DNA from: Methylocaldum szegediense
GTDB lineage: Bacteria; Pseudomonadota; Gammaproteobacteria; Methylococcales; Methylococcaceae
DNA length: 64,000 nucleotides
NCBI RefSeq assembly: GCF_949769195.1
Contig: NZ_OX458333.1
Coordinates: 1,550,001-1,614,000, forward strand
Direction: 5' to 3'
A program made the translations under genes and the position numbers. Position 1 is the stretch's first letter; each line of letters starts with the position of its first letter. Below are positions 28,465 through 31,570 of the stretch, in pieces. The notes beneath the pieces are model-generated. The model made no database searches. It saw only the letters and a list, made by a program, of their open reading frames with translations, and was not told where the DNA came from.

Positions 28465-28651
28465 TCAAATCTCCGACATCTTCGGCCAAATAAGCCGTTA
28501 TTCTACACAATTGCCTCCGAACCTTAATGGCTGCGGCTCGTCCGGTCGACGGCGCAGAGGCGTTCAGCCATTCTTGTCACCGCATCCCTCTGAATGCCTG
28601 GCCTAAATATGGGATAATCGCGCGATTCCTGAAAACATTGCATTTCGCCAC

Positions 28652-31231
28652 ATGACCAGTCATCGAACGATTCTCGTCACCAGCGCCCTGCCTTATGCCA
28701 ACGGCCCGATTCACCTGGGCCACCTGGTCGAATACATTCAGACTGACATCTGGGTGCGATTCCAGAAAATGCGCGGCAATACGTGCTATTACGTTTGCGC
28801 CGACGACACCCACGGCACGCCGATCATGCTTCGGGCCGAAAAAGAAGGCATCACACCGGAGGAGCTGATTCGACGGGTTCATGGCGAGCATCTACGGGAT
28901 TTCACCGGCTTTCACATCGAGTTCGACAATTATTACTCGACCCATTCGGAAGAAACCCGGCAACTGGCCGAGACCATCTATAGCCGGCTGAAAGAACGAG
29001 GCCTGATCGAAGCCCACTCGATCGAGCAGTATTACGATCCGGTCAAGGAAATGTTTCTCCCGGATCGCTTCATCAAGGGCGAATGTCCGCGTTGCCACGC
29101 CAAGGATCAATATGGCGATTCCTGCGAAGCCTGCGGCGCCACCTATTCGCCGACCGATCTGATCAACCCCTATTCCGCCGTTTCTGGCGCTGAGCCGGTA
29201 CGGAAGGAATCGGTACATTATTTTTTCAAGCTCGGGAAATGCGAGGACTTCCTCAAGACCTGGACCCGCGCCGGCCATTTACAGGAGGAAGCCGCCAACA
29301 AAATGGCGGAATGGTTCGAGGCGGGACTAGCCGACTGGGACATTTCCCGCGACGCGCCCTATTTCGGCTTCGAAATACCCGATGCGCCCGGCAAGTTCTT
29401 CTACGTCTGGTTGGACGCGCCCATCGGCTACATGGGCAGCTTCAAGAATTTGTGCGAGCGGCTGAATCTCGATTTCGAGCAGTACTGGAACAAGGATTCC
29501 GATGCCGAGCTTTACCACTTCATTGGCAAGGACATCCTGTATTTCCACGCGCTGTTCTGGCCGGCGATGCTGGAACACTCGGATTTCCGCACTCCTACCA
29601 AAATCTTCGCCCACGGTTTCCTGACCGTAAACGGCGAGAAGATGTCCAAATCCCGCGGCACCTTCATCACCGCCGAAAGCTATCTCCAGCAGGGCTTGAA
29701 CCCCGAGTGGCTGCGCTATTACTACGCCTGCAAGCTGAACGGGACGATGGAGGACATCGACCTGAATCTGGACGATTTCGTAGCGCGGGTGAATAGTGAT
29801 TTGGTGGGGAAATACATCAATATCGCGAGTCGAGCGGCAGGATTCATTCATCGCCTGTTTAACGGGGTGATTCTTGACCAGAATCTTCTTCCAGAAATTG
29901 GCGAAGCTTCAAGTTCAAACTTAATTCCCCAGTTGCCATATAAAAACGTTTTAACCAGCAATGCCGTAAAAAAAGGACCTGCCCAACGGATCGCCGAAGC
30001 TTATGAGCAGCGTGACTTCGCGAGAGCGATTAGGGAAATCATGGTCGTTGCGGACGACATCAACAAGTTCTTCAACGATGCAAAACCCTGGGAATTGGCA
30101 AAGGCGCCTGAAAATCTTCCCGAAGTACACTGGGTATGCTCCGCGACAATCGAAGCGTTTCGAATTTTGACCCTATATCTGAAGCCTCTCTTACCTGAAA
30201 CCGCGAAGAAAGTTGAAGATTTCCTTCAAATTGAACCGCTTTCTTGGTCGGATTTGGATAAGTCGCTGGCAGGCCACACGATAAAGCCTTACCAGCACCT
30301 GTTAACCCGCATCGATCCCAAACAAATCGAGTCCCTCGTGGAAGCCAACAAACAGAGCTTGCGAGCCGCTGTCGAGCCGGAACCTCATTCGCAGCAACGT
30401 CACGCCGAGCATCAGCAGCACACAACAACACACCCCTCTCCCTCTGGGAGAGGGGCTGGGGGTGAGGGCGCCCTGCGTCCCGCCAAGATTCCCGATGATT
30501 TACTGGCCTATGCGCGGCAATTGAGAAAAACCGCCACCGATGCGGAAACCCGGATGTGGAACCTGCTCAGGGACCGCCGCATCGCCAATGCCAAATTCCG
30601 TCGTCAGCACCCGGTAGAGTTAGGCGGAAAGCGTCACGTATTGGACTTTTTCTGTCCCGAAGCGAATTTGTGCATCGAAATCGACGGAAGCCAACATTTG
30701 GAGCAAGTACGCTACGACACGGAACGGACTCGGCTGTTGGCTGCCCAGGGCATTCGCGTGCTGCGCTTTTGGAACAATGAAGTTCTGGCACAAACCGAGA
30801 CTGTGGCGGAAATGATATGGCTCGCACTGACCGCTGGCCAAACGCAGACCCAAAAACCGACTTCTCCTCCCTCACCCCCGGCCCCTCTCCCAGAGGGAGA
30901 GGGGGGATATATCGGCATCGACGACTTCGCCAAGATCGATCTGCGCATCGCCCATATTGCCAAAGCGGAACATGTAGAAGGCGCCGACAAGTTGCTGAAG
31001 CTGACTCTGGATCTCGGCAGCGAAACACGCACGGTATTCGCAGGTATCAAGTCAGCCTACGCTCCGGCGCAATTGGAAGGAAAATTGACGGTGATGGTCG
31101 CGAATCTCGCGCCGCGCAAGATGAAGTTCGGTCTGTCAGAGGGAATGGTACTCGCCGCGAGCGACGAGCGCGGGGGGCCTTTCGTACTGTTTCCGGACGA
31201 GGGCGCGCAGCCGGGGATGCGGGTCAAATAG
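28652..31231 (+). CDS. metG: Methionyl-tRNA synthetase with an internal DUF559 nuclease-domain insertion
   Basis: 859 residues against about 670-690 for the family. Class I motifs are intact: HLGH (21-24) and KMSKS (about 330). So is the zinc knuckle [18 protein letters not shown] (about 145-165), followed by the helical anticodon-binding domain and the C-terminal Trbp111/EMAP tRNA-binding domain (about 755-859, [14 protein letters not shown]). In the linker between these last two, residues about 595-752 are a foreign cassette: palindromic ends read as [12 protein letters not shown] and PLPEGEG around a complete DUF559 domain. The frame is open throughout, so a full-length enzyme can be made. 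The anticodon domain around 29870-30330 is more AT-rich than its surroundings, hinting at a recombined segment. As the likely sole methionyl-tRNA synthetase it should be essential. Confidence 0.95.
30433..30468 (+). repeat. Left palindromic inverted repeat of the DUF559 cassette
   Basis: Begins CCCCTCTCCCTCTGGGAGAG and ends GGGGGTGAGGG. It can fold on itself and also pairs with the right copy. It is translated in frame as [12 protein letters not shown]. Similar dispersed CTCTCCCTCTGGGAGAG palindromes occur between genes in many proteobacteria; being inside an essential coding region is unusual. Confidence 0.85.
30869..30904 (-). repeat. Right palindromic inverted repeat of the DUF559 cassette
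   Basis: The reverse complement of the left repeat with one mismatch (CCGGGGG for CTGGGGG). It is translated as the [12 protein letters not shown] segment just before the tRNA-binding domain. Confidence 0.85.
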
Positions 31232-31297
31232 CGTTGCGAGCGATGGGCCGGGTGCGCACGGAAACGATGCGCGCCCGCCCCATCTGGCAAAATTGCA

Positions 31298-31570
31298 TCA
31301 CTCGGCAGTTGTCGGATCTATCACCGTCTTGATCTCGGAAATCCGATCAGCCGGAAAACCGCCCTCCTCAGCGTGCTTCCGAATCATTTCCTCGCTCGGC
31401 GCAATGTAGACGCAATAGACCTTATCGTCCGTAACATAGCTCTCCACCCACTGGATTTGCGGCCCCAGATGGTTCAGCACACCACAGGATTTTTGCGAAA
31501 TAGAACGCAACTCCTGCTCCGATAATTTTCCCGCCCCGGGAATATCGCGCTCGATTAGATACTTGGGCAT
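31298..31570 (-). CDS. DUF4242 (SCO4226-like nickel-binding) family protein
   Basis: 90 residues from the ATG at 31570, which has GGAGG 5-6 nt upstream; the in-frame ATG 12 bp earlier lacks one. The pattern MPKYLIERDIPGAG, then WVESYVTDDKVYCVYIAPSEEMIRKHAEEGGFP, matches the small ferredoxin-like DUF4242 family, one member of which binds nickel. It follows mtoX on the same strand (74-bp gap), so it may be part of the TetR-controlled unit. Its function is unknown. Confidence 0.85.
   Translation of the reverse strand: MPKYLIERDIPGAGKLSEQELRSISQKSCGVLNHLGPQIQWVESYVTDDKVYCVYIAPSEEMIRKHAEEGGFPADRISEIKTVIDPTTAE

Follow-up and report, generated by a model that had tools for sequence, protein, structure and literature searches.

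In inteins that carry a homing endonuclease, the endonuclease is translated in frame within a host gene, and EDxHD is described as a homing endonuclease family in part of the same source (PMC3943268). In Rickettsia, palindromic elements (RPE) lie in frame in ORFs that likely encode functional proteins (PMC3733652). In REP/REPIN systems with RAYT, as partly described, dispersed palindromes, some of them in inverted pairs, are found around the gene of a DNA-processing enzyme. The DUF559 domain is known from VsrA of Caulobacter, which was reported to be responsible for an SOS response in cells without a cytosine methylase (PMC12907096). In the literature covered, mainly that available without subscription, none of the 14 papers mentioning DUF559 also names repetitive extragenic palindromic repeats.

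The locus described here lies in a 64,000-nt stretch of the Methylocaldum szegediense genome (the window). Its positions 28652 to 31231, on the forward strand like all features given below, encode a methionyl-tRNA synthetase (MetG, 859 codons plus stop) with an internal DUF559 domain, as identified by its open frame, Pfam and NCBIfam. The ORF has no internal stop and is the sole full-length metG match in the genome, and its product scored 958.3 bits against the NCBIfam methionine--tRNA ligase model (cut-off 587). Pfam placed tRNA-synt_1g, the class I catalytic domain, at residues 7-395, Anticodon_3 at 445-560, DUF559 at 617-726 and tRNA_bind at 764-856. The DUF559 match is complete (positions 3-108 of 109 of profile PF04480; 113.6 bits against a cut-off of 20.6). 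The inserted cassette measures 472 bp (30433-30904) and sits in the linker ahead of the tRNA-binding domain. The host part 5' of it (28652-30432) holds the catalytic and anticodon-binding domains and the linker start, according to Pfam and to an alignment with the cassette-less metG of congeners, and the host part 3' of it (30905-31231) holds the Trbp111-like tRNA-binding domain (Pfam tRNA_bind; TIGR00399 metG_C_term).

Both ends of the cassette are formed by translated arms of 36 nt, located by repeat search at 30433-30468 (with a GTGAGGG tail pointing inward) and, as the inverted copy, at 30869-30904. The arms are 400 nt apart, 97% complementary (35/36) and encode linkers rich in Pro, Ser, Gly and Glu. 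Between them, the Vsr-like nuclease domain covers 30500-30829, as supported by Pfam, conserved residues and dN/dS. The ungapped inverted-repeat score of the arms was 33.5, while the best value was 12.0 from 1000 dinucleotide shuffles and 13.0 from 1944 equally spaced positions in the rest of the window; chance is excluded as the origin of this match. A previous sequence-only reading had described the module with its inverted repeats, the complete DUF559 domain, the frame running open from MetRS through both repeats into the tRNA-binding domain, and the site in the linker behind the anticodon-binding domain, and all of this was borne out. It had also called each arm a palindrome, which holds for the outer 23 nt (a 10-bp stem with a 3-nt loop) and not for the inner GGGGGTGAGGG tail.

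No in-frame ATG, GTG or TTG was found between the left arm and the DUF559 domain of the window metG, the nearest in-frame starts (TTG at 30521, ATG at 30554) lying inside the domain. The cassette lengths of 472 bp, in the window genome (G000) and its congener G003, and of 449 bp, in the family member G011, are not divisible by 3, so that the frame is not built in but maintained through the junctions and selection. An assembly error was rejected as very unlikely because the separately assembled G003 carries the same cassette at the same length (472 bp) and related cassettes are found elsewhere.

No Hint or intein domain was detected in Pfam scans of the MetRS (E <=1e-3) or of 45 DUF559 ORFs (E <=1e-5), and Rfam found no group I or group II intron at 28500-31400, its only hit there being to U4 (16.9 bits against a gathering score of 46, E 0.84); an intein or intron was rejected on these grounds. 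Pfam found no transposase domain of an insertion sequence in the cassette, and no target-site duplication was seen when its flanks were compared with empty sites. The cassette resembles the endonuclease-bearing inteins in being translated within its host, whereas no splicing domain was found in it and the protein seems to retain the insert (PMC3943268). It shares in-frame palindromic repeats with the RPE, which in the passage describing them are palindromic elements alone, whereas the cassette has a nuclease domain between its palindromes and hosts of several phyla (PMC3733652). In the REP/REPIN systems, as far as the sources describe them, the enzyme is a Y1 transposase, while here it is DUF559 and the GTAG tag is missing. 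With EDxHD (I-Bth0305I) the nuclease domain may be kin, as judged by profile, but no intron and no long DNA-binding tail were seen for the cassette in comparison with the part of the source describing them (PMC3943268). VsrA shares the DUF559 domain and is presented in the part of the report concerned as a predicted mismatch-repair endonuclease gene, not as an insert within another gene (PMC12907096).

Cassette presence was compared in the genus (four genomes) and in the family (38 genomes, with metG readable in 31). The sequence-only reading had proposed this comparison for close relatives, and both states were found: the metG of G003 holds the same cassette, and the linker is uninterrupted in two of the three congeners (G001 and G002). 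In the family, four of 31 metG carry a cassette (G000, G003, G011 and G019) and 27 are empty. By eye, the exact motif HAEHQQH was present in the linker of 15 of the 27 empty genes and a variant of it in most others; G006, G008, G033 and G034 have an empty metG with a different linker. The five sampled congeners of G011 are all empty, and all have HAEHQQH. On a metG tree built without the cassette columns, three changes of state are needed, and the starred branches force three. Although change counts alone do not tell gain from loss, these would be read most simply as three gains, because any loss would have required an exact return to the family linker. The left junction position is common to G000/G003 and G011 and differs in G019, and three more cassette-bearing metG, from betaproteobacterial MAGs, have the insert at other points of the same linker. 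The sequence-only reading was to be refuted if all relatives had the domain without flanking repeats; this holds in part, since for one of the four family copies (G019, score 11) the 200-nt flanks contain no inverted arms of significance. As a separate observation, the metG of G002 (L034) is strongly diverged from its congeners at about residues 408-591 (window numbering) and then similar again, a stretch that probably arose by recombination.

In-frame copies in other genes were sought via open frames, and therefore out-of-frame insertions would be missed. Among 161 DUF559 rows, 50 had a long frame. Eleven of these (L086, L088, one of L091, L092, L093, L094, L149, L151, L198, L199 and L202) were excluded for a domain at the frame end, a frame cut by the contig end, or duplication, and 39 were taken as internal, in-frame copies. 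In 38 of these, the open frame extends for at least 80 residues to both sides of the domain; in L087 only 33 residues precede it, and the host sequence upstream is therefore out of frame. Hosts were typed by Pfam (45 ORFs scanned), with L080, one of the 39, placed by its near-copy L079. DNA-methyltransferase or restriction genes hold 26 internal copies (eight hsdS, six hsdM, two hsdR, three type III mod, six type ISP/Eco57I/MmeI and one DUF1156) and other genes hold 13 (five metG, two valS, and one each of metH, bioA, bioF, hrpA, mfd and a cyanophycin-synthetase-like ligase). With the window and G003, the metG copies total seven. The kin cassettes in unrelated genes span several phyla, and several of their hosts, including the three betaproteobacterial metG, are known from MAGs only.

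Host domains were seen on both sides, in tables or alignments, in 15 copies: metG (L097, L098, L189, L191, L194), valS (L204, L207), metH (L192), bioA (L252), hrpA (L213), mfd (L218), hsdR (L090, L155), MmeI (L211) and type ISP (L265). L079, L083, L095, L154 and L150 have two host stretches, with the position of the second not given, and the remaining internal copies have a Pfam host on one side only, the second side of L262, L158 and L197 not being established as host. Hosts mostly remain complete: seven of nine scanned passed the curated NCBIfam cut-offs (window MetG, ValS L207, BioA, BioF, HrpA, Mfd and MetH); L204, whose gene is cut by the contig end, and L262 fell below. The designation of L262 as murF was dropped, as its resemblance to cyanophycin synthetase and Mur ligases concerns one side only and stays below the curated cut-offs, and that of L150 as cobD was replaced by bioF after the NCBIfam scan. 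Clean insertions were seen against PDB chains in metH (query 983|1166 versus chain 956|959) and bioA (query 312|485 versus chain 268|270). In hsdM, every copy except L157 (five of six) is inserted into one and the same loop, directly 3' of a conserved Trp.

An ATG between 25 codons before and 4 codons into the domain was present in 8 of 39 internal copies versus 89 of 117 others, and any of ATG, GTG and TTG in 24 of 39 versus 106 of 117 (5 of the 161 rows were not counted). On a tree of the 161 DUF559 domains, built from few columns by a quick method and with many unresolved forks, the standalone label (which includes end fusions) required 17 changes versus 42.9 when shuffled, and in-frame life is therefore concentrated in some lineages. 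The seven metG copies need 2 changes versus 6.9 shuffled, and hsdM needs 7 versus 8.8, while valS, Eco57I and DUF1156 need no less than shuffled labels; hosts other than metG cluster little or not at all. The domains of mod L081 and bioF L150 have 78 of 103 residues in common in different hosts, and the Rickettsiales genome AM-377-L16 has two in-frame cassettes, in valS (L207) and mfd (L218), sharing 67 of 104 residues. Three genomes and that of the window were searched for near-identical copies shared between genes, and none turned up, so that recent transposition was not seen. A plasmid search matched 42 records, all with less than 60% identity.

Taken together, these data indicate that the cassette is probably a nuclease element, mobile now or in the past, whose palindromic ends are coding and which is translated as an extra domain. 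The earlier proposal of a selfish or captured nuclease persisting without splicing in a tolerant linker gains support from its presence and absence in congeners, the family-type linkers of empty genes, the kin cassettes, the palindromic ends and the lack of an intein or intron signal. A nuclease-bearing element with two REP-like palindromic ends would have entered the flexible metG linker in the ancestor of G000 and G003. It would be translated within a MetRS some 860 residues long, with nothing removing it, and the full fusion would be made and active. DUF559, presumably folding independently, would form its own domain between the arm-encoded linkers, and MetRS would tolerate the insert. The in-frame copies would depend on the start and stop of the host. 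DUF559 may act at the palindromes or at empty alleles and so copy the cassette, the nick or cut being repaired from the filled copy. The variable insertion points in metG would favour movement directed by the palindromes, and the shared hsdM loop and the shared G000/G011 junction would favour site-directed movement, or merely tolerant loops.

The latter evidence bears on a different account, in which a site-specific, Vsr/EDxHD-like homing endonuclease cuts empty metG, repair then copies it in, and the palindromes are incidental. This would be in line with the possible kinship of the nuclease. Against PDB, the DUF559 profile matched 3hrl (E 1e-37) and, over 68 positions, the 'Mobile intron protein' 3r3p (E 1.7e-4), which we take to be I-Bth0305I. 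Six PHROGs were matched, two of them called homing endonuclease and one HNH endonuclease. Matching phage records numbered 22, of which 19 were Dickeya phages with about half of the domain covered, and a homing endonuclease annotation was present in 6 of the 15 phage records among the matches listed. (Matches to enterotoxin B chain profiles were weak, with E 0.016 and above, and were taken as chance.) The sister DUF559 domains of G000/G003 and G011, which share a left junction in hosts separated on the metG tree, and the common loop of the five hsdM copies would likewise agree with homing. Nevertheless, the insertion points vary along the metG linker (G019, L189, L191, L194), the arms are conserved and part of a dispersed family, and DUF559 kin are found in unrelated genes; homing is therefore considered rather unlikely.

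The pattern of selection was also counted in favour of the mobile element reading. Between G000 and G003, the dN/dS of DUF559 was 0.16 (dS 0.289), compared with 0.08 and 0.05 for the host parts, and 18 synonymous versus 11 non-synonymous changes were counted (P 2e-6); by these counts the domain appears clearly to be under purifying selection, though less constrained than the host parts. Between G000 and G011, amino-acid identity was 81% for DUF559 (no synonymous distance being computable) and 77% and 83% for the host parts, the domain being as diverged as its host, and this comparison speaks neither for nor against an exchange of the cassette between the two lines. Residues E19, E63, D65 and H69 are invariant in 52 DUF559 sequences and D52 is present in at least 90%; all five, presumably catalytic, are invariant in a set of 23 sequences and kept in the window cassette. 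At the DNA level, the arms of G000 and G003 are identical (72/72) versus 361/400 in the core (P 0.002), and those of G000 and G011 match at 68/72 (34/36 each) versus about 71% identity in the domain (P 7e-6). DNA ends and protein both look maintained.

Points against the mobile element reading are the lack of near-identical copies and of a target-site duplication, the armless copy of G019, the possible starts near the domain in 24 of 39 internal copies, the out-of-frame insertions that the search would miss, and the occurrence of palindrome and DUF559 apart from each other. A further one is that, with a dN/dS of 0.16, the domain may now serve the host. DUF559 could have been recruited for a job in or beside MetRS, e.g. 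in regulation or defence, leaving the arms as relics. The purifying selection, the conserved acidic and His residues and the repeated occurrence in metG (seven copies) would agree with such a domesticated fusion, which is nonetheless improbable: 27 of the 31 family metG do without the cassette, the same kind of cassette resides in hsdM, hsdS, hsdR, mod, valS, metH, bioA, bioF, hrpA and mfd, and as DNA the arms are better conserved than the core.

For the flanks of DUF559 genes, the 200 nt on the left were compared with the reverse-complemented 200 nt on the right, a score of at least 14 being counted as positive. Inverted flanks were found at 28 of 40 loci in the order set, 34 of 40 in the class set and 63 of 79 in the titled genomes. 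Control positions at the same loci gave 1/123, 4/120 and 1/240 (6/483 overall), and flanks exchanged between loci gave 4/40, 12/40 and 26/79. Direct comparison of the flanks also scored high (22/40, 26/40 and 57/79), as self-palindromes should. Long frames or high scores partly guided the choice of the order and class sets (1 of 41 order rows was dropped for too little flank), and the titled set comprised the best 80 of 580 confirmed stretches, chosen by DUF559 similarity alone (1 of 80 dropped). Most DUF559 genes have inverted REP-like palindromes on their flanks.

The 21-nt palindrome gave 53 strand hits in the window genome with at most 3 mismatches (28 forward, 25 reverse; reversed control 0), corresponding to 41 distinct places because self-palindromic sites count twice. 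Exact copies of the palindrome are present in 120 of the 311 order genomes, compared with 0 for the reversed control, and with its many dispersed copies it is REP-like. It is present in 64 of 98 order genomes with a strong DUF559 match versus 56 of 213 without (Fisher P 8e-11, with genomes counted as independent despite kinship); palindrome and DUF559 therefore each also occur alone. Of the three DUF559 matches in the window genome, one is metG, one is a standalone gene (L001) and one is a helicase-like protein of a different type. L001 has the same palindromes at both ends, its ORF reads into the right one, and its domain is 47% identical to that of metG. Other DUF559 lineages pair with other palindromes, translated as PPFEKGG, LPLSGEG and PPLEGCP types; within the order (L099-L115), the pairing with the PPFEKGG and LPLSGEG types suggests that nuclease and palindrome may evolve together. 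RAYT-driven spread of the repeats is unsupported in the window genome, as the 1.5 kb around each of the five Y1 transposase matches there lacks the CCCTCTCCC/GGGAGAGGG palindrome. One tail-like 9-mer was noted near the Y1 match L269, and three Y1 genes among the five (L271-L273) have GTAG-containing inverted palindromes on their flanks that are distinct from the GAGAGGG family. The window genome also has a pair of the same palindromes without DUF559, in frame inside a gene (L015 1501-1552, G000:C1:2790375-2790426) that we take, from its protein sequence, to be kynureninase-like.

Such pairs raise the question of whether the palindromes came first, as an in-frame REP pair in the linker into which a DUF559 gene later entered by recombination between them. 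The pair in the kynureninase-like gene and the solo in-frame palindromes present in other hosts would be compatible with this order of events. However, some palindromes form close inverted pairs in which CCCTCAC-like tails point outward (L005, L012, L018), whereas the tails face inward around DUF559, so that the cassette is not simply a filled REP pair. Moreover, none of the 31 family metG has such a pair alone in its linker, which leaves this order of events doubtful. Splicing or bypass of the insert (intein, intron or translational bypass), suggested by its in-frame position in an essential gene as with inteins, is highly improbable given that neither a Hint/intein domain (MetRS and 45 DUF559 ORFs) nor an Rfam intron was found and that frame and residues are conserved.

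The occurrence of kin cassettes, in frame, within many unrelated genes in other bacteria suggests that the cassette may represent a little-noticed mobile element that inhabits reading frames and does without splicing. A broader proposal is possible and put forward tentatively: a mobile class that would parasitise reading frames, consisting of an endonuclease ORF with no start or stop of its own and with coding palindromic ends, moving across phyla between unrelated genes, essential ones included, and tolerated unspliced as a domain of the protein, with DUF559 as the enzyme mobilising these REP-like palindromes. If this holds, essential genes could harbour selfish nucleases with no need for the splicing on which inteins and introns rely, and DUF559 would be a candidate enzyme for REP-like repeats that, in this genome, are not accompanied by its Y1 transposases. 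This domain of unknown function would gain a testable role, odd fusions such as MetRS-DUF559, HsdM-DUF559 and MetH-DUF559 would be explained as insertions, and natural tolerant sites would be marked in MetRS, ValRS, MetH and HsdM.

Further in-frame repeats were noted beside cassettes. The metG of G011 (L066/L097) has a second in-frame REP-like insert, without nuclease, in the catalytic part upstream of its cassette, and a type III methyltransferase gene (L059/L082) has an in-frame repeat array with 36-nt spacing (SPSPAGSGGENE) beside its cassette.
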